Below, in pieces: positions 13,549 to 55,616 of a DNA stretch of 64,000 bases (position 1 is its first letter; the number at the start of each line of letters is the position of its first letter). Made by a program: the position numbers and the translations under genes. Origin of the DNA: Nodosilinea nodulosa PCC 7104 (GTDB lineage Bacteria; Cyanobacteriota; Cyanobacteriia; Phormidesmidales; Phormidesmidaceae); NCBI RefSeq assembly GCF_000309385.1, contig NZ_JH976537.1:5715178-5779177 (forward strand), in the 5' to 3' direction. The notes under the pieces are model-generated. The model worked only from the letters and a program-made list of their open reading frames with translations. It made no database searches and was not told the origin of the DNA.

Positions 13549-13962
13549 TCACTGCTTCTGCCCCCACTGAGCCTGGAGCTGCTGCACCAACTGCACTGCG
13601 GTAACCTCAGGGACACCGAGTTCGATCAAGGTGCGGCTATCCATCGCGCCGCCGCCGCCACCAACGACCTGCCAGGCATTGTCCTGACGGGTCAAAAGCA
13701 TTTCGCCACCGCCATCGCCCAAAAGCCAATCCACCAGGGCATAGTTACCGACTACGGCGACGTGGGACACGCGGGGATTCGCATCCTTAGGTTGGCCTGG
13801 AAAGGTTAGGGCTTGAACCACTGCTGTGGTGATCGTGGAAGTATCGGTCTGGACATCGGCGATCGCAGGCGGAATGACCGGCAATAGGCCCGATAGGGTG
13901 ATGACGATGGGGAGCCCCATCAAGCCAGCGATAACCACGAGTGCAAACAATCGACGAATCAT
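13549..13962 (-). CDS. Secreted or membrane-anchored hypothetical protein
   Basis: A 137-residue protein with an N-terminal hydrophobic segment (residues about 4-35, ending near AIADVQ) that acts as a signal peptide or anchor. The exported domain has VAVVGNYALVDWLLGDGGGE followed by MLLTRQDNAWQVVGGGGG. This pattern recurs in cyanobacterial exported proteins without a defined role. It lies downstream of the GH19/peptidase gene and immediately upstream of the nonsense-disrupted gene, with stop and start one base apart. Confidence 0.65.
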   Translation of the reverse strand: MIRRLFALVVIAGLMGLPIVITLSGLLPVIPPAIADVQTDTSTITTAVVQALTFPGQPKDANPRVSHVAVVGNYALVDWLLGDGGGEMLLTRQDNAWQVVGGGGGAMDSRTLIELGVPEVTAVQLVQQLQAQWGQKQ

Positions 13963-13997
13963 GGGAATGACCTCATTAGGAAAAAGGGAATAAACCG

Positions 13998-16397: not shown

Positions 16398-16580
16398 AGC
16401 TCCCAGGGCGAGGGGTGGCGGATGGAGTTCCCTCGGAGGCCCTGTATGCCAAAGGTTAGGGGGCGGCTATGGCAGGTTTATGGAAAAGATGGGCAAATAT
16501 TGGGTAGCTAGATCCAAAAAGCTGGCGTCTACCCTGAGTGCGGCATGGTACATTTGCATCCATCCGCTAATTGAACCACC

Positions 16581-16925
16581 ATGATCCAGATCATCCGCAG
16601 CCGTGCGGAACCCGAGCAAATGCTTCAGATGCTAGAGGCTCTGGGAATCTACATTAAACTAGCTGTAGATGTTGAGCGTAGGATTCTAGCCGGAGGTGGG
16701 GAACTTCACACCGATTGTGAGCTTATTTTGCTGGATGATGGCAGTGAGCAGGCCAACATTTGGGGGGCTGATTGGTATCCACTCAGGCAAGCGGTTGGGT
16801 ATGAATCACTCATCAACATTCGCCCTAGTGCGAATAATAGGTCGATGGAAATTCAAGAGCCTGTTCTGCGGGAAGACATTAGCCAAATCGTGCAATCTCT
16901 TTTGGGCAACGTTGAATGGCAATAA
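16581..16925 (+). CDS. DUF5674 family protein
   Basis: A 114-residue protein containing the family hallmark: IKLAVDVERRILAGGGELHT, then a D/C pair and ELILLDDGSEQANIWGADWYP. The biochemical role is unknown. It overlaps the next gene by 10 bases, so they form a two-gene unit. The pair stands apart from the conjugation operons, on the opposite strand, just before the large ATPase gene. Tight overlapping pairs of this size can be toxin-antitoxin modules, but nothing in the sequence proves that. Confidence 0.85.
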   Translation: MIQIIRSRAEPEQMLQMLEALGIYIKLAVDVERRILAGGGELHTDCELILLDDGSEQANIWGADWYPLRQAVGYESLINIRPSANNRSMEIQEPVLREDISQIVQSLLGNVEWQ

Positions 16926-17281
16926 ACTGGGACATTCTCAAGGCACAGTATCTTCAGGCTAACCGGGCGACTCAGCTAGATAGTTTGGCCCTGAATTTGA
17001 CGCGGATTCAGCTCTTGGCGAAGAGCGGCACAGATGAGTCGGTTGCTCAACACCTAGTCAGGGAGAGTCAGTTTTTTATTGAATGGGCTGTCCCAAATGT
17101 TGATTTGGAAACGGATGTAGCTTTCGCAACTGAGCTGGTAGATTTGCAACGATTGCTGAGTCGATGGAAGCTAAGTTGGTCAGAGCTTTGGGCTAGTGAG
17201 AATAAGCGACAGGAGATTGCGATACTGGCTCAGCAGTGGTGCGATCGAATTCACAGGCGACTTGAACTGTCAGCAAGTTAG
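16916..17281 (+). CDS. Hypothetical partner of the DUF5674 protein
   Basis: A 121-residue, mainly helical protein (NWDILKAQYLQANRATQLDS, LALNLTRIQLLAK, ESQFFIEWAVP, RRLELSAS) with no catalytic motif I recognise. The ATG at 16916 lies inside the DUF5674 gene, so translation is coupled. The same order with DUF5674 would be the best clue to function; I know of no characterised member. Confidence 0.75.
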   Translation: MAINWDILKAQYLQANRATQLDSLALNLTRIQLLAKSGTDESVAQHLVRESQFFIEWAVPNVDLETDVAFATELVDLQRLLSRWKLSWSELWASENKRQEIAILAQQWCDRIHRRLELSAS

Positions 17282-17602
17282 TGAAGAGGTAAATGTCTTT
17301 TCCAAGATCCAATCTACGTGACGGTTGGTATTCAATTTTCCTGGCGGGCGATCCTTTACAACAGTACCAGCACTCTGTTTAGAGACTGTTAGCAACACAA
17401 TCACTGATTAGATTTCTCTGGCTGTTAAACAGAATCCATATTCATCAGACATTTCAGAAAAGATATAGAAGCTCTAAATACTTCACCGCTTGAGATGCGT
17501 TATAGTTCAAGAGAACTAGCATATTCGCAGACATAGTATCGATACCCTCTACAAATTTTCAATTCTAGACTTCTATATATAACTATGAGGATTTAGTTAT
17601 AG
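17282..17602 (+). other. AT-rich intergenic region upstream of the large ATPase gene
   Basis: About 320 bases without a gene, clearly AT-richer than the DNA to the left. It marks the left edge of the AT-rich cargo. TATATA-like stretches near 17574-17580 could be part of a promoter, and an inverted repeat surrounds the ribosome site of the next gene. Confidence 0.5.
17578..17601 (+). promoter_or_regulatory. Inverted repeat enclosing the ribosome site of the large ATPase gene
   Basis: TATAACTA and TAGTTATA form a perfect 8-bp inverted repeat separated by 8 bases (TGAGGATT) that include the GAGGA ribosome site, ending one base before the ATG at 17603. As RNA it would put the ribosome site in a hairpin loop; as DNA it could be an operator. 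Confidence 0.45.
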
Positions 17603-20600
17603 ATGCCAACCTCAGCTTCAGAATCTCATGACTTCTCGTTACTTGCTCAAGTTGTTGAGTTGAGGAACGCATGGGAGCGAAATCACTCTGAGCGAGCACA
17701 GGGTGGATTGCTATCAATTAGTGGTTTTGAATACCAATTTCTGTTAACGCTTCTAAAAATCATATCTCTATGGAAGGCATCAACTGATATTGAACGCCAA
17801 GATTTAGAAGTAGCCAAAGGTGTTCTTTCAGAAGCTATTTCCGATATTATTGAGACTGGGAAATATATTACTTTAACTCAGGCAAAGAGAACCCTCTCTG
17901 CTAGCGGTCTCAGGAAAGCTCTTGAGGAGTTATGGCAAATTTTTATACTCGCTTCTACCAAAACTCCTGAGCTAGCAAAACGTCTCGAATTTGTAATCTC
18001 AGGCCAGTTAGAAGGAGATGAAAATCCCCAGCAAGTTATACAGGGATGGAGAACCCGATCTCAAGGATATCCTCAAGAAGAATTGAGATTATTTAAGGAA
18101 ATTATCCGCTATGAAATAGTTCCTGATCCAAGAGTTGATCTTTTAACTGAACTACAAGTTCTTGTGAGGAATGAAGATGCAGAGACGACAATTGCACGCT
18201 GGTTAGGGTATTTTCTTCAGCTTGGTTCTGGGTTTTCTCCAGAGAGTATAAGTACATTAATCTGGAAAGAGCTTTCTAGCGACGGAAGCCTAAAGGCATT
18301 TCGTACAACCCTTGCTAGACTATTCAGTCGTTCTCAGAGCCGACTTTCAGCTGTTCGAGAGACGCTTGGTCGAGATATTATTCTGCCTAGAGTTGAGCTT
18401 TCGGCGTTACGACGAGCTTTACATGAGAACAACATTACTCTCCTTGTCGGCCCCTCTGGTTCAGGAAAGTCGGCGCTCTGCAAATTAAGTGTCCTGCAAG
18501 AATTTAATCAAAAATTTGACTGCTTATTTTTACAAGCATCTGACATCACTATTTTTACTGAGTCTTCAGAAGTAAATGCTAATCAGAAACTAAGAAGGCT
18601 TGACGAGCTTTTAAATGCGCAGATTACTCAAAAACCTAATCTCATCATAATTGATGACCTGGGTGACGTAGATAATCACCACTTGGATGCTGTTTTAGAC
18701 TTGCTGCAAAACACTTTGGCTGCTGGTACATTTGCAAATGTCCGTTTCATTCTTGTTGCTCATATAGATGCTAAAAATCGTATCCATGAAAAGATATCTG
18801 CCAGATTGGGAAGCAGTTCTATATACACTGATGTCGAACTACCGCAACTTCCTGTAGAAGAACTTGAGTCTTCTGAGAACCTACCTGATAGTATTGTCAA
18901 GCTGATTCAGCGATATCAAGAATTTGGACCTGCGCTCAATTTGAAGTTAATTGATTGGCTAGTTCGCAGTATTGAACAAAATAAAATTGATATACCTGTT
19001 TTTAGAAACGATCTAGACTTGCTTACTTGGTTTTGGCAAGACTACATTCAAAATGGGCAAAAAATTAGCGATTTAAGTCGAGCATTAATAAAAATTTCTG
19101 AGGGGCTGGCCGATAAATTTGTGCCTGATCTTCCGTGTCATTTCGATCCATCTATTGATAGTAGCACTTTACACGCTTTGGTAAGGCGTGATTGTCTTCA
19201 TATTGTGGACGAGCGGCTCGCTACCACTCATCGCTTTGTTGGAGACTGTGCAAGGTTTCAATATCTTCGAAGCTACCGTAGGGAGATCGAAGGAAAACAC
19301 TTAGTAGAAAGGTTGCAAAATCCGTTTTGGGTTCAACCAGTTCGCTGGTTTTCACTACAGTTAGCATTAGAAGAGGAGCAAAGGGAAACTTGGCAGGAAA
19401 TTTTTTGTGAAGCTTTAGAATGCAAGCATTTACAACTTTTGGATTTGCTTTTAGATGGTGCAATTTTAAGCAAGCAACCAAGCTGTGTTTTGCAAGGATG
19501 CCCAGACGGAAGCCTGTCTTTTATAATTGAACGTATCATTGTTCGCCTTCTAGGGATTGCAACAACACAATACTCCTTTTATGCAAATGACTATAAATCT
19601 AAGCCTCTCCAAACACGCATTAAAATTCGAGAGAAATTAACCGGAATTCCTCAACCAGAGTTTTGGGAACCTATATGGCGTTGGCTCTTTTGCCAAGATC
19701 CCGAAAACATACTTGAAGAATCATGCATAGTTTTTAAGGCAGCGGAGGCTTGGTTGAACTGGAGTGAGAAGGCACAAGAGTTTTCGCTTCGAAATGAAGT
19801 TGCTAAATTTACGCTTGATTTAGCACAAAAAGTATTGTTGCCTGATCCTAAGCCACGAGGGCGCAGTATTGACTCTGCAGAACTTGAGGAGTTATTTAAA
19901 CGAAAACAGAAAGAGATCATCCCGCTACCGGAGCCACCTAGGATAAGAAGCTACTATTTGGGTGATTTTGAGGAAAATGCTTTTTCTTGTATAGTTTTTG
20001 CTCTCCGCATCACTCAAGAACGTGCAACATGGTTTCTCAGAGTATTGGCAGGCCGAGAAATTATCCCGTCAAACAAACTAGAACCAACTGAAGTTTCATC
20101 TTTTCTTAGCAGACCTGGTGTGGGAATACTTGAAACGCCGCATCCACAAGGCCCCTCAGGAGGAGTTGATTACCGTTTCCGAAAGTTCATGCTTAACCGA
20201 AATGGTCTGTATCTAAATGCAGTTATCCTTACCAATCCCCAACTTGGAGTCGAGTTATTCTTAGCTTTGATAATTAAACCGCCAAGCTACCGCTATGAAA
20301 ATGATGCGGATTTTGATTGGGATGATCGACATCTCGGTATAGCTGGCTCTGATGACATTGATGTTTGTACCTTCAAATTCCTCCCATTGCTCTCATTGCT
20401 AGAAATTGATGAAGTGGTTGCCATCAAAATCATTAATATTCTTTGCAAAATTGCGACAAAAAACAACCAAAAGAATTACGAAAGAATCGACCAAAGGACA
20501 ACTTCCTTAGAAGATCTTTCAATTGATCCTCTTCGGGCTGATACACATGAGCTTAGTTTAATTATTGAAAACGTCAACAAGCAATTTGAAGGAGAATGCA

Positions 20601-22957
20601 AAACTCTTTACTGGCACCGAAACAGTCCGCTTTCCCCCAAAATTATTAACTGCCTTCTTATGACATTGGAAGGATGGCTTTACAGTCGCCCTTCTAGGCA
20701 TAAACTTGAATGCTCTGTAGATACCATATTTAATCAAAGTGATACAGTTGCGCTTCTAGGCGTTTTAGTGACATTGGCGAAATGTGACTCTCGTCTCTTA
20801 AGTGGCTGCCTAATGCCGCTCACTTCATCAGTACAGTTACTCGTATGGTTAGAGTTCGAACAGATTGATAGTAGTGGCCAAAACTATGTTTTCGACAGCA
20901 TTGGTTCTAGAAAACTTGTAAAGGAAGAGCAATGGGAACTGCTGGAGTTTAATCGACTTTCATACCGTAAGCATGATTTGTTGAGAATAATTTTGAGCTT
21001 ATGGGTGAATGAAGTTATCCCGGATAAAGCAAAAACAAAAGTTTTGAATAACTGGGACAATATTCAGCTTGCATTAGTTCCAGAGGTAAGCCGCAGAAGA
21101 GCCTTAAAAATTCGTGCGTGGTTTGAACCAAACAATTGGAAAAGAGAAATTAATCATCAAGATGAACATGAGTTCCAGTTTGTTGGAAACTTACCTGAAG
21201 ACGACGAAACTGATGCCAGAGCTGAGAATGCACTTCTAAATCTCCAGCACCTTCAGCTGACAATGACATGTCGGAAAATTATTGATGGAGAACAGGAAAA
21301 AACCTTAGAGCTCCATGACCATCTAGAAGATATTTTGACCAGTGATGAAAAAATTGAAATGCTTAGGAATACTCTCGAATCAAAGTCATTTCTTGATGTT
21401 GTCTGGGCATCTGTTGCGATCATCCTACAGCCACCACTCAAACCTTTAAATCAAGAATTAGAAGCTGACTTAAGTTATTTGGCGGAAACTCTTGTGAATG
21501 CTCCTTTCTCCTTGGATCGTTTCAGTCGTTGTCAGGTTTTCAACGTAGATGCTAGTGCCTTTATTTCTCATATAGCTCCTAACTTAATAATGAGGCTTAA
21601 GTCTGACAGCGAAATTCTTGCTACAACTTTTCGATGCTTAATTGGAGCGCGGAATCGAGATACATCAGCTTTCTTGAGGTCTTGGCTTGAGGATTATGGG
21701 TTTGAACATTCGCTTACTCAAAAAATTATCAGTTTAGCTCCTTATATTGCCCGATTAATAACGCTAACTCATGCTTTAGCTTATGCTAGATGTATTCAGA
21801 AAGTTGCCAGATCTGATGGCTCTTATATAGTTCCACGCCCTGAAGAAATTGACTATGAAGTTGGCAAGAGAGAGGATCTTCAAGTTCAGGAGGCTTGGGT
21901 AAGCTTACAGCGTGACTTCACCGAGAATAAGTTGCAACCGATTACGATTTTTAATGCCTCTGAGTGGGTCCCAGAAGCCTTGAATGAGTCTTTACAAAAA
22001 ATCCCTGCATGGCTTAAGGGAAGATATGTTCATCATTCTTTTGACTGGGAATTCTTATTGGCGATATTAGTACCCATATTTCGAACCGTAGAACAAAGTG
22101 ACAAAAACTCAGATTACGTTGTAGACCTAAAGAATCAAGTAATAGCTGAGTTGATTTATGAACGAGAAAATACATATTTTGAATTTAAAGCTAATGAAGA
22201 AAAGAAGCATATTTATAGTGGCTCACGTGTACACATACATCTTTATCAATCTCAGTCTCAGATTTTAGATGAAATACTTAATCCAAGAGAATCAGGTTTT
22301 TTGAGACAGTTAGATGAAATCATTTGTGAATTCAAGGAAATCAGTCTGATTGACTGTATTTTCCTAGAGCATGTGATTGATAGACTGATATACAGTTCTG
22401 CTGATAGTTCTGCCGCTGAAAAAAGAAATATTTCCTTGCATCATCAAGCAGTCTTTGCAATTGGAGATTATCTCAATGAATTTACACAACAGTCGACATC
22501 TGAGCTTAAGACCCTTGGAAGAACAGGGAATGCTTGGGAACGAATGATTGAACTTATTTCTCAAGAGCCTAAGTACACTGTAGATGTGGCTTTTATAGAT
22601 CGGTTTGCTGTGGATTTCGTCAAACGTTACCAAAAACTTTTATTTCCTAATTCTCGTTTGAGGTGGAGGCTTTATCGCACCGCTACATTTAAAAATTTCA
22701 AGCAATTACGGCGAATAATTTTTCGGTTTCTGATTGAAAAGCCGAAAATTGTTTCTAATGACAAGAGCGAAGAGAGTAAGGTTTTGGTTCAAGTTTTAGC
22801 CGAACTCTGGGATTCTGACTACACCTGGATAGTTGATAGACAATCTCGATGCAAAAACTTAAAGCTTTTGCTTAGTCAATTACAGAAAATTGATGCAGTA
22901 GGAGCAAGCCTTTTAGCAGATCAAGTGGCTGATTCTTTGTCGAATTCTACCAGTTAA
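17603..22957 (+). CDS. Giant P-loop ATPase with nuclease-like N-terminus, candidate Avs/STAND antiviral protein
   Basis: A 1784-residue protein. Residues about 34-115 have GFEYQFLLTLLKI, then E77/D81 and LTQAK (93-95). This pattern resembles the Cap4/DUF4297 class of PD-(D/E)xK nuclease, where GFxYQ, an acidic pair and QxK are conserved. Residues 278-480 hold a P-loop ATPase: Walker A GPSGSGKS (283-290), Walker B LIIIDD (347-352). The remaining about 1250 residues are helical without named motifs, as in sensor regions. The order nuclease, STAND-type ATPase, long C-terminal sensor is that of Avs proteins that detect phage proteins. The gene is AT-rich and I saw no HIP1 site in it, so it is probably a recent arrival. 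Antiviral function is inference. Confidence 0.65.
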   Translation: MPTSASESHDFSLLAQVVELRNAWERNHSERAQGGLLSISGFEYQFLLTLLKIISLWKASTDIERQDLEVAKGVLSEAISDIIETGKYITLTQAKRTLSASGLRKALEELWQIFILASTKTPELAKRLEFVISGQLEGDENPQQVIQGWRTRSQGYPQEELRLFKEIIRYEIVPDPRVDLLTELQVLVRNEDAETTIARWLGYFLQLGSGFSPESISTLIWKELSSDGSLKAFRTTLARLFSRSQSRLSAVRETLGRDIILPRVELSALRRALHENNITLLVGPSGSGKSALCKLSVLQEFNQKFDCLFLQASDITIFTESSEVNANQKLRRLDELLNAQITQKPNLIIIDDLGDVDNHHLDAVLDLLQNTLAAGTFANVRFILVAHIDAKNRIHEKISARLGSSSIYTDVELPQLPVEELESSENLPDSIVKLIQRYQEFGPALNLKLIDWLVRSIEQNKIDIPVFRNDLDLLTWFWQDYIQNGQKISDLSRALIKISEGLADKFVPDLPCHFDPSIDSSTLHALVRRDCLHIVDERLATTHRFVGDCARFQYLRSYRREIEGKHLVERLQNPFWVQPVRWFSLQLALEEEQRETWQEIFCEALECKHLQLLDLLLDGAILSKQPSCVLQGCPDGSLSFIIERIIVRLLGIATTQYSFYANDYKSKPLQTRIKIREKLTGIPQPEFWEPIWRWLFCQDPENILEESCIVFKAAEAWLNWSEKAQEFSLRNEVAKFTLDLAQKVLLPDPKPRGRSIDSAELEELFKRKQKEIIPLPEPPRIRSYYLGDFEENAFSCIVFALRITQERATWFLRVLAGREIIPSNKLEPTEVSSFLSRPGVGILETPHPQGPSGGVDYRFRKFMLNRNGLYLNAVILTNPQLGVELFLALIIKPPSYRYENDADFDWDDRHLGIAGSDDIDVCTFKFLPLLSLLEIDEVVAIKIINILCKIATKNNQKNYERIDQRTTSLEDLSIDPLRADTHELSLIIENVNKQFEGECKTLYWHRNSPLSPKIINCLLMTLEGWLYSRPSRHKLECSVDTIFNQSDTVALLGVLVTLAKCDSRLLSGCLMPLTSSVQLLVWLEFEQIDSSGQNYVFDSIGSRKLVKEEQWELLEFNRLSYRKHDLLRIILSLWVNEVIPDKAKTKVLNNWDNIQLALVPEVSRRRALKIRAWFEPNNWKREINHQDEHEFQFVGNLPEDDETDARAENALLNLQHLQLTMTCRKIIDGEQEKTLELHDHLEDILTSDEKIEMLRNTLESKSFLDVVWASVAIILQPPLKPLNQELEADLSYLAETLVNAPFSLDRFSRCQVFNVDASAFISHIAPNLIMRLKSDSEILATTFRCLIGARNRDTSAFLRSWLEDYGFEHSLTQKIISLAPYIARLITLTHALAYARCIQKVARSDGSYIVPRPEEIDYEVGKREDLQVQEAWVSLQRDFTENKLQPITIFNASEWVPEALNESLQKIPAWLKGRYVHHSFDWEFLLAILVPIFRTVEQSDKNSDYVVDLKNQVIAELIYERENTYFEFKANEEKKHIYSGSRVHIHLYQSQSQILDEILNPRESGFLRQLDEIICEFKEISLIDCIFLEHVIDRLIYSSADSSAAEKRNISLHHQAVFAIGDYLNEFTQQSTSELKTLGRTGNAWERMIELISQEPKYTVDVAFIDRFAVDFVKRYQKLLFPNSRLRWRLYRTATFKNFKQLRRIIFRFLIEKPKIVSNDKSEESKVLVQVLAELWDSDYTWIVDRQSRCKNLKLLLSQLQKIDAVGASLLADQVADSLSNSTS

Positions 22958-22996
22958 GCGATTATTTGGCTTCCAAGCTGTCGGGATGGAAGAGGG

Positions 22997-23006
22997 AAGT
23001 ATAGGT
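22997..23006. repeat. Target-site duplication, left copy (IS4-family element)
   Basis: AAGTATAGGT occurs here and again at 24487-24496, directly outside the inverted repeats of the IS4-family element. It is an exact 10-bp duplication. Confidence 0.9.
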
Positions 23007-24486
23007 GAATGTCACTGACGTAAGCCCTATCAAGCTACCAGCTTAGCTTTCAGGACTGAGCGGGGTTCCTGCATTCTCGGGAACGGTTTGGGACGACGTT
23101 TGACGACTCGGGGTTCTGAACGGTTGGGGCGAAAGGGAACAATCAGCTCTTGCACAGCGCTTAACAAGGCCTGGTAGCCTCGCTGTTGCTGGGATGGAGC
23201 GAGATGGAGAAACTCGGGTCGGAAGTGATTAAATTGTTGCCGAGTGCCCTGAAGGGAGAGCCGTAACGCGTCGACCTCAGAGTCGGCAGTCGCCTCCCAC
23301 ATGAGGGTTCGCAGCAGATTGTAGGTCAACAGATGAACCCAAATGCTTTTGGTCACCATAGCGGGCGTTTTGGCGGCAATCATCTCCATAGCTAAGGTGG
23401 TCTTGAGATGCCTGAGATTGACTTCGGTGGCCTGCCAGCGGAGGTGATAGAGTTCGGCCAATTTAGCTTTGCGATACCGCTTGGCGTCCATCAGGGTGGT
23501 CACCACTACGATGTTGGTCGGTCGAAACCCAGGCGTCTGAATGGAGAGAAAGACTTCGCGTACCTCAATCGACTCGGGTAAGGCTTCAAACTCCTCAGGC
23601 GAGAGGGCGTCGGGGCATTGCTTGGGGCGTTGCCACCGGACAATGTGGTCGCCAATCCCAAGCTTTTTGCCACGCCTGAAATCGCAGCGGCGCTGATGGT
23701 GCTTGCGAAAAACGGCATCGGCTCCCGTCAGCGCGACCCAGGCCAGATCCACATAGGTGCCATAGGCCGAATCGGCCACCACCACATCCTCTGGGCGCAG
23801 GGTCTGGTAAAGTTGGCGGGCTAAGCGCCACTCACTCACCCGAAAAGGAGCCATCGCTACCTCCAAGACCGCTCCCGTAGTCACGCAAAACCACACCTGA
23901 AGCTTCAACAGCGGAAAGCCACAGCCCGTCTTCTGATTGCTGTGTTGGGGATACGCCGCTTGATTGGCCTTGGTATCACTCATCAAGACCGTCGTGGCAT
24001 CAAAGGCCTTGACTCGGCGACCACACCACCGTTGTTCCGGGGATACTTTCCGTTGTAACGCCCTCGTCACTCGCTTTAGTAGGGGTGGGAAAATGGACTC
24101 GCTCAGGCGCTTACGCGCTTTACTGTACCCCCCGGTATCGGCTGACGGCGGCTCTAAGCCCGCCAGGCTCATCCAGGCCACCACCCGCTTGACCGCATGG
24201 CTGAGACTGCCATCGACATCAAGAACTTGGGAGATCCAACTCCACAGCACTACCATTGGGGTGTAGAGCACTTGGCGATAGGCGATGCCTTGTTCGTCCA
24301 CTACAGCCTGGACTTCGGCTTCCGGTAGAACCTTGGCAAAGGGTAGACCGATACTGTTTTGGTATTTCTCCTTGAGGACATCCGCACGATTCGGCATCAT
24401 AGAGACATGGTTTTGGGTTTCGACGCTTCGATCTTTACAGATCAAGCGCTTGAAGCCTTTTCTGCTCTCTTATGTCAGTGCCATTC
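23007..24486 (-). mobile_element. Complete IS4-family insertion sequence (1480 bp)
   Basis: Both ends are visible. The terminal repeats are GAATGTCACTGACGTAAG on the left and, reading inward from the right, GAATGGCACTGACATAAG (16 of 18 match). It carries one transposase gene on the minus strand and is flanked by a perfect 10-bp target duplication, so the insertion is fairly recent. It landed in the last codons of the gene to its right. Confidence 0.92.
23030..24445 (-). CDS. IS4-family DDE transposase
   Basis: A 471-residue transposase that appears intact. The first Asp is in VKAFDATTVLMSDT, the second in VVVADSAYGTY, and the IS4 signature Y-(2)-R-(3)-E-(6)-K is LYHLRWQATEVNLRHLK. The tail is basic. 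The gene fills the element between the terminal repeats. It probably remains able to move the element. Confidence 0.92.
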   Translation of the reverse strand: MICKDRSVETQNHVSMMPNRADVLKEKYQNSIGLPFAKVLPEAEVQAVVDEQGIAYRQVLYTPMVVLWSWISQVLDVDGSLSHAVKRVVAWMSLAGLEPPSADTGGYSKARKRLSESIFPPLLKRVTRALQRKVSPEQRWCGRRVKAFDATTVLMSDTKANQAAYPQHSNQKTGCGFPLLKLQVWFCVTTGAVLEVAMAPFRVSEWRLARQLYQTLRPEDVVVADSAYGTYVDLAWVALTGADAVFRKHHQRRCDFRRGKKLGIGDHIVRWQRPKQCPDALSPEEFEALPESIEVREVFLSIQTPGFRPTNIVVVTTLMDAKRYRKAKLAELYHLRWQATEVNLRHLKTTLAMEMIAAKTPAMVTKSIWVHLLTYNLLRTLMWEATADSEVDALRLSLQGTRQQFNHFRPEFLHLAPSQQQRGYQALLSAVQELIVPFRPNRSEPRVVKRRPKPFPRMQEPRSVLKAKLVA

Positions 24487-25483
24487 AAGTATAGGTGGCT
24501 TTCGGCGGCGATAAGTGCCTATTCAATAGATTCCTAGCCACATCAAACTGCTGAAAATCCTGGGTTTCCAGCCGCGAAACCACCTTCTCTCCATCCACCG
24601 CCAGCACCTGCCCTCGTCCGTCCTTGGCGGTCACCGAAAGTTGATTGCCCGCCATTTTCAGCCGATAGTGCTGGCCCTCAAACTCCTGTAGCCCCGTCAG
24701 GGCAAAAAACTGTTGCACCATTTCCACCGCCGATCGCTCCTCCGGCGATAACTCCGCTACCGCCTCACCTGCTGACTCAGCCCGATCTTCGCTGCTCTCA
24801 GCCGCCAGCGCCAATCCTTCAATCTGCTCCCCTAATCGCGGGTCATACTCCACCTGCCCATCGGGCAGCACCTCTACTACCAGCACCGGAGGTTCCACCA
24901 ACAGCTCAGGGTGGGTAATTGACGATTCGCTCAACTCCTGCCCTATCAGCCGTTCTGCTGCGCCATAGGGAATGCGCTCCAAATGGGGAGCTAGCTGCTT
25001 GACCGGCTCATGGTGAAAGCAAGATACCCCGTCGATTTCAATATCGACAATCTCTCCGTCGATCACCTCCACCTCACCCGGCAACGTGGACAGCTCCACC
25101 ACCTGCCGTAGATAGGCGACCTGCTTCGGCGGCAGTTGCAACAATTGCTCCCGCAGATCACCCTCTAGCGCCCCGGCCACGATCGCATCGCCGATCTGAA
25201 TCCGCACCGGGACGCTCTCTAGCTGGGGTGGCGGCCCAGGGTTGAGGAGTCGGGGGTCATGACCAGTTAGCCGCTTCTGCTCATCGTCAAGGTCTGTGAT
25301 ACTTACCCAAACCGGAGCTACCCCTGGGCGCTCTTCCAGTAGGGGGGGTGCCTGCTCTAGCTTTTCCTCCTCGGCCCGCTCCTGGAGCCGTACCTTGGCC
25401 AGCATCTGGGCGATCGCATCCAAAATCGAATTAATGTCGTGCTGCACTTTTTCAGCACTGTGGGGAGAGCCGCCAAGGATCAT
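24485..25483 (-). CDS. VirD4-adjacent protein with shared C-terminal module, 3' end replaced by IS
   Basis: A 332-residue acidic protein that follows the coupling-protein gene by 17 bases. Residues 1-60 are helical and charged, the middle is beta-rich and acidic, and residues 268-325 (FEGQHYRL, QLSVTAKDGRGQVLAVDGEK) form the cleanest copy of the module also found at the ends of the relaxase, nucleotidyltransferase, primase and helicase. The TGA stop is partly made by the IS4-family element. Without the element the frame continues SLFHPDSLEAK and stops at 22962-22964, so 11 residues were lost, probably without destroying the module. An adaptor role between cargo and VirD4 is inference. Confidence 0.7.
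   Translation of the reverse strand: MILGGSPHSAEKVQHDINSILDAIAQMLAKVRLQERAEEEKLEQAPPLLEERPGVAPVWVSITDLDDEQKRLTGHDPRLLNPGPPPQLESVPVRIQIGDAIVAGALEGDLREQLLQLPPKQVAYLRQVVELSTLPGEVEVIDGEIVDIEIDGVSCFHHEPVKQLAPHLERIPYGAAERLIGQELSESSITHPELLVEPPVLVVEVLPDGQVEYDPRLGEQIEGLALAAESSEDRAESAGEAVAELSPEERSAVEMVQQFFALTGLQEFEGQHYRLKMAGNQLSVTAKDGRGQVLAVDGEKVVSRLETQDFQQFDVARNLLNRHLSPPKATYT
24487..24496. repeat. Target-site duplication, right copy (IS4-family element)
   Basis: Second copy of AAGTATAGGT, matching 22997-23006. Joining the flanks at a single copy restores the C-terminus of the neighbouring gene. Confidence 0.9.
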
Positions 25484-25500: not shown

Positions 25501-27288
25501 TCAAAACACATCCTGAAACTGCTTGAGAATCGCCGGGTCTTTGAGATTGGGCGCACTGGCTGTCGCCTGCTTGGGTAGCGGGAAGAACTTCTCGGCAATC
25601 GCCATCCGAGCCGCCAACTGCTCGCGGGTGTACTCCTCCGAGTTGAAGTGCTGGCGGGAGGCTGCAATCAGTCGTTCTCGCACCTTGGGCCAGCGAGCCT
25701 TGCTCCAGGCTTCCTGGTCGATGTCGGCTTTAGGCACCTTCACTTTCAAAATCAGAGGAATGGAGCCTTCGTCCTTGCGGCTGTAAGCCGGGTTAATCAG
25801 CACGCATTTGCCCGTGGTGAGCTTGTTGAACTGGGCGGGTTCCACAATGGCTCGCTTCTGGGTATGGCCAGCGGTGCTGGTGCTGCCGCCGCCTTTGCCC
25901 GTGCTCTTGGTCTTGGATTTGATCTCCACCTCCTCTTCTCCCAGGTAATCGCTGAAGAGGCGAGCGCTGTCGGGGTCTTGGGGGTTGAATAGGGCTTTCG
26001 TGGCACAGCCGCCGAGAATCGAGCGGCTCACCTCGCGGGAGTAGGCCTTCTCTAGCTGGGTCAGGTTTTGAAAGCCCACGATCGCCACCAGGCCATCAGA
26101 GCGGTTTTCGTTGAGCCACTGGGTCAGGTAAGGCAGATACAGCGTCGGCAACTCATCCAGGGCCAGCACCAGCGGGTCACTGCGCTTGCGGGTGACGTTG
26201 CGGGTAACAATCAGGTGTAGCAGGGTGGCGACCAGGGGCGCGACCGCTTCCCGCCGCTGACGATCCAGCCCCAGAATCAGCAGCTGTTTGCCTTCCAGAT
26301 CCAGCGGCAGGGTGGTCTGACCGCAGAAGGCGGTGACCAGCTCCTGGCTCAGAAAGCGGCTGAAGACCTTGCTTGCCATGCCGATGACCCCAGCTACCGT
26401 TTTCTCAGACCCGGCTAACTGCAAAAGCTGCGAAAAGGCCAAATACACCCAGTTGCTCATAGCCCAGTCGCCCCCGGCGTCACCCCGTTCTTTGGCGGTA
26501 CGAATGCGGCTCGGTAAATCCGACAGGCTCAAGATCGCCGAGGCCATCATCAAATCCGGCTCGGGCATCCCCTTGGCCAGCATCAGAATTGCCTGGGTCA
26601 GCTGGTCACCGGCATCGGCGAAAAACTTGTCTTCAGACGCATTGGCCGAGAGGGCAAAGTTGCGGTTCATCACCGTGGCAATCTGCCGCGCCATCAGGGC
26701 ATCGTCCGCATCCCGCAGAAAGTCCAGGGGATTGCAGACCTCGCTTTCAGGATAGCCGGGGGCAAAGATGCTGACGGAGTAGCCCCGTTTGGCGGCATAG
26801 GCGGCCAGCACTTCGGTCTGGTCAGGATACTTAAAGTCGTAGACGATCGCGGGCGTCCCCTGATCCAAAGCTGAACGGATGGTGGGGTTGATCATCGAGA
26901 AGGTCTTTCCCGAACCGGGGGCTCCACAGACGGCAATCCCCCGCTGAGCATCGGGCAACCAGAGACTGCGACCGCTGTTGATCTGGTCTTTGGCGTTTCG
27001 ACTAACGCTGCCAACATACAAGGTGACGGCATTGTGGCGATGGTCCTGGAGTTGCTGCATGGCCTTTTTTCGGGCGGCGCGTTTCTCTCCGCTTCCAGCC
27101 AGATAGCCTCGGGCCAGTTGGCCTTTTTTCTGGTTCTGGCCAACAAATGACATGACCAGCATGGCCGCGATCGCACCCACAAGCACTAGCCCGTTCTGCC
27201 CCTGCAAGGAATGAAAGATGTTATTGCCGGTGCTGGTAATGCCGTCGGGAACGGGAGTAACGCCGATGTAGGTTTTTGGGGCGGTCAT
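25501..27288 (-). CDS. Type IV coupling protein (VirD4/TraG/TraD)
   Basis: The inner-membrane ATPase that feeds relaxase-DNA to the secretion channel. It has a short N-terminal membrane segment (GLVLVGAIAAMLVMSFVG, about 33-50), Walker A GAPGSGKT (122-129), IVYDFKYPDQ, and a Walker B-like LVLALDELPTLYLPYLTQW followed by IVGFQNLTQLEKAYS, which matches the TraG/TraD motor. It has one clear N-terminal transmembrane segment where many VirD4 proteins have two. A Gly/Ser/Thr-rich insert (SKTKSTGKGGGSTSTAG) lies near residue 485. It overlaps the VirB9-like gene by 4 bases. Confidence 0.92.
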   Translation of the reverse strand: MTAPKTYIGVTPVPDGITSTGNNIFHSLQGQNGLVLVGAIAAMLVMSFVGQNQKKGQLARGYLAGSGEKRAARKKAMQQLQDHRHNAVTLYVGSVSRNAKDQINSGRSLWLPDAQRGIAVCGAPGSGKTFSMINPTIRSALDQGTPAIVYDFKYPDQTEVLAAYAAKRGYSVSIFAPGYPESEVCNPLDFLRDADDALMARQIATVMNRNFALSANASEDKFFADAGDQLTQAILMLAKGMPEPDLMMASAILSLSDLPSRIRTAKERGDAGGDWAMSNWVYLAFSQLLQLAGSEKTVAGVIGMASKVFSRFLSQELVTAFCGQTTLPLDLEGKQLLILGLDRQRREAVAPLVATLLHLIVTRNVTRKRSDPLVLALDELPTLYLPYLTQWLNENRSDGLVAIVGFQNLTQLEKAYSREVSRSILGGCATKALFNPQDPDSARLFSDYLGEEEVEIKSKTKSTGKGGGSTSTAGHTQKRAIVEPAQFNKLTTGKCVLINPAYSRKDEGSIPLILKVKVPKADIDQEAWSKARWPKVRERLIAASRQHFNSEEYTREQLAARMAIAEKFFPLPKQATASAPNLKDPAILKQFQDVF

Positions 27289-28049
27289 GGATGCGTGGCC
27301 CCCATAGGAACAGGCAGAGTGGAGCTTGGTTGGGAAATTGGAGACAGTCCCATCTCGGCCAGTCGGGACACAACCGCCATCGAGACGCCAGCGGCATCAG
27401 CAGCCGATTGAGGCATGGAGCCGTTACGGACTCGGGCCAAGAAGTCTTGGATTTTGGAGACAACGGGGCTGTCAGCGGGGATGAGGTGGGATGCGATCGC
27501 GCTATTCAATCCTCGTTCCACATTGGCGAGGCTGACTGCTCGGCCACGGGTGGTGACGATCGCGGACGATTGAGGAGTGGTGGTGGGTGCAATGGCCACC
27601 GTCGCATACTGCGGATCGCCCGAGCCATAGTTCACCTGAAACTGATAGACCTTGCGCCCTTCGGTTGAATCCGTCACCACCGTCAGCAAGGTAGAAGCCG
27701 TCTCCGGCAGGTTCTCGAAACGAATCCCCGTCACCCGCCTGAGGTGAATAACGCTGGCTCCGGCTCCATCACAGTTGCCGGAGTCCCCTTGACCGCAGAG
27801 ATTGCCGTCAAAATCCAGGGTGAGCCGACTGGGATCATCCAGCCACACCCGCTGAATCACTTCCCCGGTGCGGGTAAAGTCTAGGTTAGTGCCAGAACCG
27901 GGCCACACGGAAATCTGAGCACCGCCCCCCGTGAGGCCCTGGGCCTGGGCTTCCGAGAGTTGGCGCACGATGGGGGCGCAGAACGCGGGTTTTGCGATCG
28001 CCAGCAGTGAGGCTAAAGCCAACGGCAGCACTAGAGAAAACCGTTTCAT
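27285..28049 (-). CDS. VirB9/TraK-like outer channel protein
   Basis: A 254-residue exported protein with a signal peptide (cut near PAFCAP, residue 25). The N-terminal beta domain has AQISVWPGSGTNLDFTRTGE, VWLDDPSRLTLDFDG and GIRFENLP, which together fit the TraK/VirB9 family that forms the outer part of the type IV core complex with VirB10 and VirB7. The C-terminal 90 residues are helical and do not look like a classic VirB9 C-domain. Two cysteines (LCGQGDSGNC) may form a disulfide. It overlaps VirB10 by 4 bases upstream and VirD4 by 4 bases downstream. Confidence 0.78.
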   Translation of the reverse strand: MKRFSLVLPLALASLLAIAKPAFCAPIVRQLSEAQAQGLTGGGAQISVWPGSGTNLDFTRTGEVIQRVWLDDPSRLTLDFDGNLCGQGDSGNCDGAGASVIHLRRVTGIRFENLPETASTLLTVVTDSTEGRKVYQFQVNYGSGDPQYATVAIAPTTTPQSSAIVTTRGRAVSLANVERGLNSAIASHLIPADSPVVSKIQDFLARVRNGSMPQSAADAAGVSMAVVSRLAEMGLSPISQPSSTLPVPMGATHP

Positions 28050-29512
28050 AGCGCCACCTCAAAGGAGGTTCCGGTGAACACCTGCACCGGCTGACCAGCG
28101 GGGATATACCAGACATTGGGGCGACTGAGAATGTCCTTGATTTCCTGCTGCTGGCGATCGCTCACCTGATCATGGAGCGCATCAAAGCCCCCTTCCAGCA
28201 CAGCTCCCAGAATATTCGGAGCGGGGTTGGTGGTGGTTGAGGAGGAATAGAAGACAGATCCCGTGGAGGTTTGACTGTTAGGACGATTGAGAATTTCGCC
28301 CACCTTGCCCAGGGCTCCCATCAGGGCCACACCCGCATCCAGGCTTTGGATTTGTCCGGCATCATGGTTGTATTCGGAGGCCATCAGGGGATTGCCCTGG
28401 TCGCCTTGAATCAGCACGGCACCAGCTGGTATTGGTACTACTTGATTGCCGCTCGCAGTAGGAATCACCACTGCAATCACCGACAGCTCCACTAGGCCGC
28501 TCTCGGAAATCGTATCGACCTGGGTCACCATCTGAGTGCCTGCGGGCAGGGCCACGGTGCCATCTGCCGCCAGAATTGGTTCGGTGAGCTGAAGGCCAAA
28601 CCGCTGGGGCTGCTGGGTACTGTCCAAATCCTGCGCCCAAACAACCGGGGTGCTCAAAGTCGCAGCAGCTTTGGCTCCGGCTAGAATGCTGACGACATGG
28701 CTGGGCACTCCAGAGAGAATCGCGGCGGCATCGGCCTCATAGCGAGTCTGGTCGGGATTGTCGGCTTTGGGAGCCTCGTCTGTCGTGGGAGACGCATCGG
28801 CTACCGTTACGGATGCGGCGGTCGAGGGTTTCTCCGTGTCGTAACTGATCTGTCCGTAGCTGCCCAAGGTCGCTGCTGTTTGCCACTGTTTCACCGGATC
28901 GACATGAACCACAGGAGCGGATGAAGCAACTGGAGCCGATCGCACCGGAGCCGAGTAGGACGGCGGCGGGGCATAGGTCACCGGAGCGGGATGACTGACG
29001 GGCGGGGTTGAGACCGCCGTCGCTGGGATTGTGGATGTGGTGACTGGTGGGGATGAGGCCATAGGCTGTGCCTTGTCATCCTTCAGCGCCTGGGTTTGGG
29101 TGCCCAGGGCTTCAACGGTCTTGAGCCTGCCGATTTCATTGGGGTCAGTCTCTGGTTGGGCCGGGCTGGCAGTTGTTGCTACGGCAGGGGCGGTATCGGC
29201 TGCGGTGGCTGGAACTTTAGCGGGCGCATGAACGCTGTGGAGGAAAAGGGCGACTAGGCCGATTGCGATCGCCAACCCCGATCCCACAAACACCGCCTTA
29301 GCCCAGGGATTGCTCCACAGCTGCGGTTGAGTCGTCGGATCGGATTCCGGTTCAAAGTCTTCGGAGTCGAGAAGGGGTGACGGGGACGGAATTGCCGAAG
29401 CAACAGGCTCATCGCTGTAGCCGGTGAGCGCCGCCAGGTGGCTGAGTTCGTCGGTCTCCTTTGGATGCTGTTCTGTATCAGGTGAGGGGTTTAATACCAT
29501 GGTCAACGTCAT
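28046..29512 (-). CDS. VirB10/TrbI-like channel protein
   Basis: A 488-residue protein with the VirB10 layout: a cytoplasmic N-terminus (about 75 residues), one transmembrane helix (KAVFVGSGLAIAIGLVALFL, about 71-90), a long periplasmic linker rich in Pro, Ala, Ser and Thr (about 95-260), and a C-terminal beta domain with RFGLQLTEPILAADGTVALP, PAGTQMVTQVD, and a closing VWYIPAGQPVQVF. VirB10 spans both membranes and links the ATPases to the outer pore. The ATG lies just after the stop of the upstream VirB8-like gene. Confidence 0.88.
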   Translation of the reverse strand: MTLTMVLNPSPDTEQHPKETDELSHLAALTGYSDEPVASAIPSPSPLLDSEDFEPESDPTTQPQLWSNPWAKAVFVGSGLAIAIGLVALFLHSVHAPAKVPATAADTAPAVATTASPAQPETDPNEIGRLKTVEALGTQTQALKDDKAQPMASSPPVTTSTIPATAVSTPPVSHPAPVTYAPPPSYSAPVRSAPVASSAPVVHVDPVKQWQTAATLGSYGQISYDTEKPSTAASVTVADASPTTDEAPKADNPDQTRYEADAAAILSGVPSHVVSILAGAKAAATLSTPVVWAQDLDSTQQPQRFGLQLTEPILAADGTVALPAGTQMVTQVDTISESGLVELSVIAVVIPTASGNQVVPIPAGAVLIQGDQGNPLMASEYNHDAGQIQSLDAGVALMGALGKVGEILNRPNSQTSTGSVFYSSSTTTNPAPNILGAVLEGGFDALHDQVSDRQQQEIKDILSRPNVWYIPAGQPVQVFTGTSFEVAL

Positions 29513-29675
29513 TCCTTAATTAGGATTCGGGGCGAGTTGTTGAATGTCTAGGTCGCGGATTTCGGTGATTTCCAAACCGTTCTCCCGCAGTCGATACACC
29601 GCCTTTTGCAGCGGCGTGGAGGTCTCAGGGAGCGGATCAGCAGCCGATTCAACCGCCCGGACGAAGAGGCTCTTG

Positions 29676-29678
29676 TTA
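29676..29678. repeat. 3-bp target duplication TTA, left copy (IS5-family element)
   Basis: TTA here and at 30590-30592 flank the IS5-family element. TNA duplications of 3 bp are typical of IS5-family members of the IS1031 type. Confidence 0.7.
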
Positions 29679-30589
29679 GAGGACGTTTTAAAAGATCTGA
29701 GGGGTCAAAAATTATGCCAACCGCCTGACCATAATACGGATCATGGCCAGGTAGATGAGGGTCTCTGAGGTTTCGGGTAGCAGTTCATAATCTCGCACCA
29801 AACGTCGGCACCCCATCAGCCAACCGAGGGTACGCTCCACCACCCAGCGTTTCTTGAGCAGCACGAACCCTTTAGTTTGTTGAGGTCGCAGCACGACTTG
29901 GAGAATCCAACGACAGGTATCCATCACCCACATCATGAAAGCAGGGCCATCAAAGCCCCCATCCGCCCAAATAATGGTCAGTCTCGAGATGGCAGGCCCC
30001 ATCGCTTTGACGCGCTTGAGGAGTTGCTTACCCCCCTCACGCTCCGGCACACTGGCGGCGGTGACCAGCACCCGCAGCACCAAGCCGAAGGTATCGACGC
30101 CCAGAAACCGTTTACGTCCTTTAATCTTTTTGCCCGCATCATAGCCAACGGCCTCATGCACCATGGCCGCGCTTTTCACGCTCTGACTATCGATGACGGC
30201 TTCTGACGGTTGAGGGTGTCGGTCTTGCTCAATCCGAGTCCACTCGCGCAAGTGGTCATGAATGATGATCCAGGTGCCGTCCTTGCGCCAGTTCCGGAAG
30301 TAGGTGTACACCGTCTGCCATGGCGGAAAGTCTCCCGGCAAGGCCCGCCAACGGCACCCTTCTACCAGGAGATACATCATGGCATTGAGCAGCTCCCACA
30401 GATCCACGCTGCGGGGTCGTCCGCCTGGTTTGGCCTCAGGCAGCAAGTCACTCAGCAGCTCGTATTGGGCACGGGTTAAATTGCTGGGGTAGTCTTTACT
30501 CATCGTCTCACTCCGGCATTGCTGACTTCTATCTGCAACTTACACGGAGTGAGCTTTTTTACCCACGGACCGACTTTTCAAACACCCTC
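29679..30589 (-). mobile_element. Complete IS5-family insertion sequence (911 bp)
   Basis: The left end starts GAGGACGTTTTAAAAG, and the right end read inward starts GAGGGTGTTTGAAAAG (13 of 16 match). A single transposase gene fills the interior. Bounded by TTA duplications, it cleanly splits the VirB8-like gene. Confidence 0.85.
29712..30503 (-). CDS. IS5-family DDE transposase
   Basis: A 263-residue transposase, apparently intact, with an N-terminal LTRAQYELLSDLLPEAKPGG and RPRSVDLWELLNAMMYLL block (DUF4096-like), ALPGDFPPWQTVYTYF, the first Asp in AVIDSQSVKSA, the second in IIWADGGFDGP, and the Glu in KKRWVVERTLGWLMGCRRL. This is the usual single-frame IS5/IS1031 layout. Confidence 0.93.
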   Translation of the reverse strand: MSKDYPSNLTRAQYELLSDLLPEAKPGGRPRSVDLWELLNAMMYLLVEGCRWRALPGDFPPWQTVYTYFRNWRKDGTWIIIHDHLREWTRIEQDRHPQPSEAVIDSQSVKSAAMVHEAVGYDAGKKIKGRKRFLGVDTFGLVLRVLVTAASVPEREGGKQLLKRVKAMGPAISRLTIIWADGGFDGPAFMMWVMDTCRWILQVVLRPQQTKGFVLLKKRWVVERTLGWLMGCRRLVRDYELLPETSETLIYLAMIRIMVRRLA

Positions 30590-30592
30590 TTA
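30590..30592. repeat. 3-bp target duplication TTA, right copy (IS5-family element)
   Basis: Matches 29676-29678 and restores the interrupted reading frame when one copy is removed with the element. Confidence 0.7.
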
Positions 30593-31191
30593 AAGGGAAT
30601 CGCCAACCCCTGTGGATGGGTGGGGTCAAAAATCAGCAGGTTGGCAACCATGTCTACTTGCCAGTAGCCTGCCTCTAGCGCTTTGGGCGTAGAAATCGTC
30701 TCAATGTTGAGCACGCTCTGGGCGCTGCCGCTGAAGATTCCAGGAGGCGTAATCGCCGCCACCTGGTCGAGAAAAGCGGTGCGAAAGTCTTCTTTGAGGG
30801 CAAAGGAGGCTTGCCAACTGGCGGTGGTGATGCGCCCATGGTTCACGGGGACTCCCTGGTCAGCCGGGGCGCTGGCAGCGGCAGGTGCTGTCGTCTGCCC
30901 CTGGCTATTCCAGGTAAACATCAGACCCATAGCGGTTTTGACGAACTGTTGGATCACCTCCGGGGTGCGTTGACTGGGGTCAACGGCTTCGGTGCTGATG
31001 GAATGGCCATCCACCAGCTGCACCAGGGAGGGCACGGGGCGATGGGCCAGGTGGTTGATGCGAGCGGTATTCAGCAGGGTCATCACCAGCAGCAGGCCCT
31101 GAATGCCGAGGGTGACCAGCACGAACAGCGGCAGAATGTCGGACGAGTGAAAGCGACGGGAGCGGTTGAGGAGTTGCATCGAAGGTCTCCT

Positions 31192-32292
31192 TTAGCGAAA
31201 GGAATGGAAGTAGTTTGGTGACACGGCGTAGGAACCGAGCATGGTGACCATGCGGGCTGAGCCGCTGGTGATGATGTTGAAGACGGCCAGACCACCTCCT
31301 GCTGCAATGGCCAGCGCCAGAGCGGGAGCCAACAGGCCGATAATCACTAGAAAGCCGAGGGTGTCGGTGACATCGGCGTTGACCACGACCACCCCCGCCA
31401 GGCCGACGATGATGTTGTAGGACACCTGGGCCATGCCCAGGCTGAAGAAGCCGGTCAACCAGGCAAATAGGGGTTTGGCTTCAAAGGGCAGCAGACTCCC
31501 GGCAACGGCAAATGGCCCCATCAGGCCGGTGAGCAGCAGGGAGATTTCCAGGATGTTGGTGAAGGCCCACTGAAAGGCCAGCAGCACGTATTGGACGATT
31601 TCTTGGTTGACGGAGCCGAGGAATCCGGCGAAGAAACCGGCGGTGCCAAAGACGGCTCCTGAAATTGGGTTGTCTTCGGCCTGGGCGGTCTGCACGGCTC
31701 CATCAATGCCTCGGGCAATATTGCGGAGGGAATCAGGCAGAGGCAGAAAGCCCTGGTAGTCGTTGATGGTGGCCTGCACCTGGGCATTGGCGGCTTTGAG
31801 ACAGTCGATTTGCTTTTGCCCTACCATGCCTTCGCACTGACTGAGCTGGGCGCTGATCTCGCCCGCAACGGCGCTGCGGGAGGTGGCGGCCTGGACGGCA
31901 TCGCGCAGTTTGACATCCAGCAGGGTGACTTCGAGCACCTGGTTGGAGAGGGTATGGATGACGCCGCGCAGGCTGACGGTGGAGACAGCCAGCAGGTGGG
32001 CGTTGTTGGCCAGCAGGCAGACGACGATGATGGGCCAGATCAGATTTTGCAGCGGGCGGGTGAGGTCGCCTTCGACGATGAGCTGTCGGCCAAACTGGAC
32101 GATGAAGAAGATCAGGGCACCGGCTGCGAAGATGGCGGCGGTCTGGTTGATGGCGACGTACAGGGTGCTGTCGAAGATGGTCAGCCACTGCTGGTCCCAG
32201 GCTTGGGCGATGCTTTGGGAGGTGTCGAGCCCTTGCTGGAGGATCTGGCTGGCTCCGGTGACGGCGAGCCAGGGGAGAGGGGAAGATGTCAT
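31192..32292 (-). CDS. VirB6/TrbL-like polytopic membrane protein
   Basis: A 366-residue inner-membrane protein with about six hydrophobic segments (around 50-70, 85-105, 215-235, 245-265, 275-300 and 310-340) and a hydrophilic central loop containing two cysteines (SQCEGMVGQKQIDC). This is the VirB6/TrbL pattern: N-terminal periplasmic start, large central loop, Gly/Ala-rich C-terminal helices. It forms the inner membrane part of the DNA channel. It starts the visible secretion operon; the VirB8-like gene follows 12 bases downstream. No VirB4 gene precedes it, which is unusual. Confidence 0.78.
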   Translation of the reverse strand: MTSSPLPWLAVTGASQILQQGLDTSQSIAQAWDQQWLTIFDSTLYVAINQTAAIFAAGALIFFIVQFGRQLIVEGDLTRPLQNLIWPIIVVCLLANNAHLLAVSTVSLRGVIHTLSNQVLEVTLLDVKLRDAVQAATSRSAVAGEISAQLSQCEGMVGQKQIDCLKAANAQVQATINDYQGFLPLPDSLRNIARGIDGAVQTAQAEDNPISGAVFGTAGFFAGFLGSVNQEIVQYVLLAFQWAFTNILEISLLLTGLMGPFAVAGSLLPFEAKPLFAWLTGFFSLGMAQVSYNIIVGLAGVVVVNADVTDTLGFLVIIGLLAPALALAIAAGGGLAVFNIITSGSARMVTMLGSYAVSPNYFHSFR

Positions 32293-53852: not shown

Positions 53853-53905
53853 TCTATCTTCTGCGTAGAGAATGTATAGATATTAAAGAGTGATAAGAAT
53901 AAGAA

Positions 53906-54065
53906 AGATGTCTGCAAAAGCTATCTTCGTCTTGTGCCCAAGCGTCGTAAGAACCCATGAGATTACCATAGGATCTACTACAGCGAAACCTGGGGCATAA
54001 AGCTATCATTGAAATACACCATCGCAATTAGTCAATGGAAATTGATACTTTATATGCAGACATCT
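53906..54065 (-). ncRNA. Retron msr-msd non-coding RNA
   Basis: On the minus strand an 11-bp perfect inverted repeat bounds the region: AGATGTCTGCA (54065-54055) and TGCAGACATCT (53916-53906), like the a1/a2 ends of retron ncRNAs, about 160 nt apart and 53 bases before the RT start. Within it an imperfect hairpin runs from 53996 to 53936 (GCCCCAG pairs with CTTGGGC), with the inner stem CCTATG/CATGGG (one G-U) around loop GTAATCT, a likely msd. The msr part with CCAT...ATGG precedes it. Boundaries and the branching G are inferred. Confidence 0.72.
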
Positions 54066-54095
54066 ATTGAGCAATAATAGCTTATTTTGGTTAGG

Positions 54096-55604: not shown

Positions 55605-55616
55605 TTTTGCACTCGA

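Follow-up and report, generated by a model that had tools for sequence, protein, structure and literature searches.

What kind of protein does the long gene at positions 17603-22957 of the window encode, the window being the whole 64,000-nucleotide stretch of Nodosilinea nodulosa PCC 7104 DNA analysed here (host genome G000, 6,891,283 bases), and what would that protein act against? A sequence-only reading had taken it for an Avs/STAND-type antiviral protein carried by a conjugative element, and had described the gene as AT-rich and free of HIP1 sites. The counts bear out this description: the gene has a GC content of 0.396 (40%) and a GC3 of 0.321, the 2-kb blocks lying entirely within it are at 0.405 and 0.403, with 21 of the 32 window blocks at 0.55-0.60, and it contains none of the 53 HIP1 sites (GCGATCGC) of the window. 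The HIP1-free run, 11.5 kb at 13859-25410, exceeds the length of the gene, and 14-16 kb has normal GC nonetheless. The open reading frame starts with ATG and continues for 1784 residues without an internal stop. We judge it to be real because it has homologs 81% and 53% identical and because dN/dS is 0.267 over 1784 codons in comparison with the closest of these, from Leptolyngbya sp. PCC 6406; at this value the protein is under purifying selection and therefore kept functional. The gene and the conserved stretch before it are located as follows:

17603..22957, + strand: whole gene, predicted to encode a nuclease-like effector, a STAND NTPase and a long C-terminal sensor (open reading frame and homologs)
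17451..17553, + strand: upstream non-coding stretch, 76% conserved just 5' of the G336 homolog, whose protein is 81% identical

The middle of the protein is the part that Pfam detects. At E 0.1, 17 families match, all weakly and all within residues 256-391, and AAA (PF00004) is the sole family passing its cut-off (21.7 bits against 21.2), with nSTAND1 and nSTAND3 matching the NTPase only below theirs. A P-loop, a Walker B motif and a downstream histidine motif are arranged in the STAND layout, between the N-terminal effector and the C-terminal sensor, and the histidine H543 is nearly invariant in 13 aligned rows. On these motifs the ATPase is STAND-like, as the earlier reading had proposed, and the H(D/R)....(W/C) pattern around H543 is common to Avs4. 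The NTPase signal in profile comparisons is non-specific, since a NACHT control compared at full length by hhalign reaches 92.1% across 121 columns of the NTPase, so only the hhalign result for the C-terminus is specific. The features of this part are:

18386..19297, + strand: STAND NTPase and winged-helix region, about residues 262-565, limits estimated (Pfam AAA/nSTAND, hhalign)
18449..18472, + strand: Walker A motif GPSGSGKS, residues 283-290
18644..18664, + strand: Walker B motif IIIDDLG, residues 348-354
19229..19255, + strand: HRFVGDCAR, residues 543-551, corresponding to HDIYEEWAL in E. coli Avs4

The C-terminus had been described as lacking known motifs, and Pfam indeed has no match over its ~1220 residues; it is not free of relatives, however, since profile-profile comparison shows it to be distantly homologous to the Avs4 sensor. 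For this comparison we used four groups: P, the four-protein clade of the window protein (window, PCC 6406, L. boryana and G388); Q (Geminocystis, G105, Paraburkholderia and Aromatoleum); R (G358 and six plasmid proteins); and an Avs4 group of five (two E. coli proteins annotated Avs4, Haliscomenobacter, Hymenobacter and G428). G072, which consists of two ORFs, was excluded from the group profiles, with ORF 1 placed in the tree and ORF 2 in the single-protein hhalign set. Compared as whole proteins, P and the Avs4 group gave 99.2% (E 7.2e-20). With the sequences cut 300 residues after the P-loop, leaving the C-terminus only, they gave 96.0% (E 4.8e-9) over 594 columns, and 94.4% once the G428 row was taken out of the Avs4 group. 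The other C-terminal comparisons connect the groups further (P-Q 99.8%, P-R 96.9%, Q-Avs4 99.6%, R-Avs4 99.9%), and the controls were clean, with all 23 unrelated proteins at or below 0.5% and all 12 reversed comparisons at or below 0.6%. The parts of the sensor are:

19298..22954, + strand: C-terminal sensor, about residues 566-1784 (C-terminus-only hhalign)
20171..22198, + strand: sensor part covered by the alignment with the Avs4 group, residues 857-1532 (hhalign)
22100..22954, + strand: end of the sensor that diverges fastest, about residues 1500-1784 (identity blocks against L. boryana)

The relation between P and Avs4 is carried by diverse Avs4 relatives and is centred on residues ~930-1090, a region that contains WHR..LLMTLEGWLYS and on which most single-protein matches also centre. 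When the Avs4 side is reduced to the two E. coli proteins, P reaches 1.6% with its C-terminus and 21.6% at full length, and against single proteins the values range from 0.2% for EcAvs4b and Sphingomonas to 92.7% for Haliscomenobacter and 98.0% for Geminocystis, with G004 at 0.0%. The hhalign alignment of P with the Avs4 group does not extend past residue ~1532, and the far end, residues ~1500-1784, has 31.3 and 39.3% identity to L. boryana compared with 49.7-63.4% in the other full blocks.

Single-model searches miss this relation. At E values up to 1 the window protein is not matched by any of the Avs models. Scanning G000 with the PADLOC Avs4 model at E 0.001 gave no match, and the L. boryana homolog matches this model at E 0.0065 over residues 998-1065 only. 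In the PDB, the window protein and the 4-row and 7-row profiles gave P-loop matches only, without a match to Avs4 (8dgf). A 13-row profile did match 8dgf; its alignment already holds Avs4-like rows, and we therefore set this match aside as proof and used the group-against-group comparison with controls instead. The earlier statement that the protein cannot be placed in a known Avs group thus stands as far as the Avs models go, but not at the level of the superfamily, where the C-terminal comparison puts it with Avs4. In a tree of the NTPase and following region (22 rows, 973 columns, arbitrary root, uneven letter make-up in 14 rows), P forms one long branch (100/100) apart from the Avs4 group (100/98) and is joined to the Q rows at 100/99; G072 and the R rows stand together, also at 100/99, and G004 is long and of unsure place.

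The N-terminus had been noted for a nuclease-like GFxYQ / acidic / QxK pattern, which is present and conserved: in the four-protein clade GFEYQ (41-45), E77, D81 and Q93-A-K95 are all invariant except Y44 and A94, and G41, F42, D81 and K95 are invariant across eight N-termini of the wider family. The features of this part are:

17642..18322, + strand: putative Cap4/DUF4297-type (PD-(D/E)xK-like) effector domain, about residues 14-240 (profile matches, Pfam via a relative, LmuA model)
17723..17737, + strand: motif GFEYQ, residues 41-45 (N-terminus alignments)
17843..17845, + strand: D81, candidate metal-binding acidic residue (invariant in eight N-termini)
17879..17887, + strand: QxK motif Q93-A94-K95 (K95 invariant in eight N-termini; Q93 and K95 in the clade)

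The profile checks that had been suggested came out unevenly: the NTPase matched as described above, and the N-terminus alone matched no Pfam family, PF14130 included, at E 1. The link to Cap4 is made through relatives. A tblastn search of 72,556 plasmid records with residues 1-241, at an E limit of 10, gave seven matching records, four from L. boryana, one from Enterobacter hormaechei (5e-6), one from Agrobacterium (1e-3) and one at the chance level of E 8; two of the seven were sampled. A profile of the clade's N-terminus matches the Enterobacter protein at E 7.3e-15 and the Agrobacterium STAND protein at 2.8e-17 in a set of 28 sequences, and the Agrobacterium protein (L068:4007-6859) in turn matches Cap4_nuclease (PF14130) at E 2e-5, with 25.4 bits just under the cut-off of 26.2. 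Matches to the PADLOC LmuA model are seen for the window protein at 7.7e-4 (residues 38-362) and the L. boryana homolog at 1.5e-5, as well as for both the Agrobacterium and the Enterobacter proteins. On these matches the N-terminus is most likely a Cap4-type nuclease domain, in agreement with the earlier suggestion of a DUF4297/Cap4-like N-terminus.

By the same kind of comparison the N-terminus differs from the E. coli Avs4 effector, with which it is not alignable (hhalign 0.6%). Against the N-termini of other groups the values are 0.1 to 35%, with Paraburkholderia, at 0.1%, again not alignable, and a profile search of 292 genomes returned the window's own copy only. AlphaFold models were unusable, with a mean pLDDT of 39.0 for residues 1-600 (1-266 below 50) and 29.2 for residues 600-1784; both inputs had the PCC 6406 homolog as sole second row, and the models were excluded from fold searches and claims. 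In the Enterobacter hormaechei plasmid protein (L067:4980-9689) the window-type N-terminus is followed by nSTAND5, repeats recognised by eye and S1 RNA-binding domains (four stretches), so this protein possibly has an RNA-related sensor.

Related sensors carry other effectors: PNP_UDP_1 in G105 (1.5e-12), TIR_2 in G428 (6.9e-23) and caspase in G072 (6.5e-13), where the sensor is split over two ORFs. The Geminocystis protein has no recognised effector. Conversely, the window-type effector also precedes other STAND proteins, those of Agrobacterium and Enterobacter. Effector swapping among related sensors is typical of Avs/NLR-like immunity. Varied effectors were reportedly part of the original Avs work, so that effector variety by itself is not new.

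Two further arrangements were seen among these relatives. On a Haliscomenobacter hydrossis plasmid (L047:760-6763), a gene for an MBL-type hydrolase (SHWDNDH and PHHGS by eye) is followed by an NTPase and sensor protein that matches PADLOC Avs4 at 5.4e-157. The N-terminus of the latter matches the PADLOC Avs2, LmuA and RT_UG9 models and has GFSGSG by eye, with no protease match in Pfam; it is probably a trypsin-like domain, placed ahead of the Avs4-type NTPase and sensor in one protein, and this protein and the hydrolase may together form a nuclease-protease pair built on the Avs4 scaffold, an arrangement that would fit the nuclease-protease pairs described in the portion of PMC12799240 available. 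In L038:3885-9211, a caspase-STAND protein and a separate downstream ORF jointly cover the Avs4-type layout.

How, then, should the protein be classified? Like Avs4 (AVAST type 4; PADLOC PDLC02169), it is a single large gene product with an N-terminal effector, a STAND NTPase and a long C-terminus, and the sensors of the two are homologous by profile-profile comparison. In E. coli Avs4 the effector is an Mrr-like nuclease, and the trigger assigned to Avs4 is the phage portal protein. The clade is not filed as Avs4, because both the Avs4 model match and the E. coli Avs4 effector type fail; its branch in the tree is separate, long and fully supported. By sequence comparison it is a divergent clade of the Avs4 superfamily with a probable Cap4-type effector rather than Avs4 itself. 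With Cap4/DUF4297 nucleases it has in common the GF..Q, acidic residue and QxK pattern and the link via the Agrobacterium protein, but Cap4 of CBASS carries a SAVED sensor, whereas here the domain would be joined to a STAND NTPase and an Avs4-like sensor. The PADLOC candidate family PDC-M54A (G004 protein, L041:5464-10407) resembles it in a GGFEYQ...QAKHS N-terminus, with a weak NTPase alignment (hhalign 51.4%), and differs in its C-terminus, which reaches at most 0.4% with any group. Avs1-Avs3 and Avs5 have the tripartite STAND design in common with it, but to PDB Avs2 (9o4e) the 13-row profile aligns in the NTPase only (262-457), among the best 60 of 492 matches.

It is highly likely, in our opinion, that the gene by itself encodes an NLR-like antiphage protein which belongs to the Avs4 superfamily and works like an Avs protein, in line with the Avs/STAND proposal of the earlier reading; the three-part layout, the sensor homology to the Avs4 group, the indirect Cap4-type relation of the N-terminus and the different effectors on related sensors all point in this direction. 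In such a protein the ~1220-residue C-terminus would bind a conserved phage protein made in infection. Binding would free the STAND NTPase, which could then bind ATP and oligomerise, and the oligomer would bring the N-terminal Cap4-type nuclease domains together to cut DNA. Cutting would stop phage growth, probably at a cost to the cell. Avs1-4, in the portion of PMC12931631 available, act via nucleases after sensing terminase, portal or Ksap1. More tentatively, and with somewhat less than an even chance of being right, the clade could represent a separate AVAST-like type, with an Avs4-derived sensor rebuilt at its C-terminal end, a phage trigger other than portal (perhaps particular to cyanophages) and a Cap4-type nuclease, on a scaffold that would carry six kinds of effector (Cap4-type, E. 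coli Avs4-type, PNP, TIR, caspase and, by motif, trypsin-like).

The surroundings of the gene bear on the question of its target. Upstream are a DUF5674 gene and a 121-residue ORF without a Pfam match (16581-17281); parts of this stretch match 23 of 60 genomes of the order, its own included and several places in some, so it is not tied to this gene in particular. On the other side are:

23030..24445, - strand: IS transposase, directly downstream, one of at least six near-identical genomic copies
25501..32292, - strand: conjugation block, with a coupling protein at 25501-27288 and TrbI at 28046-29512

Conjugation genes thus do lie beside the gene, and for four of them (27285-28049, TrbI, 30559-31179 and 31192-32292) there are counterparts on L. 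boryana plasmid2, close to the homolog and in an orientation relative to the gene opposite to that in the window. Apart from the conjugation block, no flanking ORF is common to the four clade loci as fetched (window, L005, L006 and L037, the last with little flank), which is why the gene would appear to act alone, as cargo of mobile elements.

This location, together with a far C-terminus that diverges fastest and hence a trigger that may differ from that of Avs4, is what speaks for the same machine sensing competing plasmids or conjugative elements, or guarding its own element, instead of phage. Defence genes commonly travel as cargo, however, so location says little about target; many of the relatives are plasmid-borne merely because a plasmid collection was searched; and the Avs triggers named in the available portion of PMC12931631 are phage proteins. 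We regard a plasmid-directed role as unlikely and prefer the antiphage one. Next to the PCC 6406 homolog lies a gene for a 1057-residue protein (L005:4287-7460, - strand) with a DFDGD motif, presumably as in two-barrel RNA polymerases; a search of the window for D.DGD-type motifs gave one DADGD only.

The distribution of the family is patchy. The nearest named homologs come from Leptolyngbya, with four L. boryana plasmid records at 53% identity behind PCC 6406 and G388, where the gene is broken, at 48%. The gene occurs in 2 of 63 genomes of the order, its own included, and in a sample of the phylum 3 of 292 genomes match, two of them with distant Q relatives. A 7-row profile matched 65 of 386 genomes at E 0.001, mostly in the P-loop region only; the matches reaching past the NTPase were those of the window, G145, G105, G388, G072, G428 and G358, and these were retained together with G004, which matched profile positions 185-484 only. 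Relatives on plasmids were sampled from the matching records (4 of 54, of which 2 were used, 4 of 38 and 6 of 28). Viral contigs, queried with a 7-protein alignment and with the window protein, contained no relatives, and phage records no match to the window protein. Two more weak matches to the family profile lie in the host genome itself, at C2:75900-76034 and C1:1562640-1563188, in open frames of 1523 and 819 residues.

A relative with a known non-defence role, which the earlier reading had named as a sign against it, did not turn up: two relatives are annotated Avs4, others match Avs4 or candidate defence models, and most are annotated just as hypothetical, ATP-binding or NACHT proteins. 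The literature covered, open-access with few subscription papers, contained nothing on this clade and no assay of it. STAND proteins and such effector domains are described for multicellular prokaryotes in the portion of PMC7159879 available, which would speak for a non-immune role, for instance in signalling or cell-death control in filamentous cyanobacteria; the homology of the sensor to Avs4, the patchy occurrence and the base composition unlike the surroundings argue against it, and we consider such a role very improbable. That the protein is a Lamassu-type, LmuA-like effector rather than an Avs-type receptor is scarcely credible in spite of the LmuA model matches, since the model spans 373 positions and lacks a sensor of 1200 residues, no partner gene is common to the four clade loci as fetched, and the related sensors of G105, G428, G072 and Geminocystis lack this N-terminus. 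LmuA of Lamassu has the SMC-like partner LmuB beside it.

If the protein is of the Avs4 superfamily, as we prefer to read it, the Avs4 sensor family would extend to a deep cyanobacterial branch missed by the PADLOC Avs4 model, and model-based counts of Avs genes in cyanobacteria may be too low. A single sensor scaffold is seen with several effectors, and the Cap4-type effector in turn with other sensors. The trigger, if found, would show how a sensor of protein shape changes its target.

Elsewhere in the window there is an AT-rich island on the - strand (52761-53852, 54096-55604 and 55617-56051). It contains a retron-type reverse transcriptase (PADLOC RT-Protease_XI, 2.2e-135) adjoining a TPR protein, the middle of which is CHAT/caspase-like by eye, and on these features the island (52761-56051) is likely to be a second defence system.
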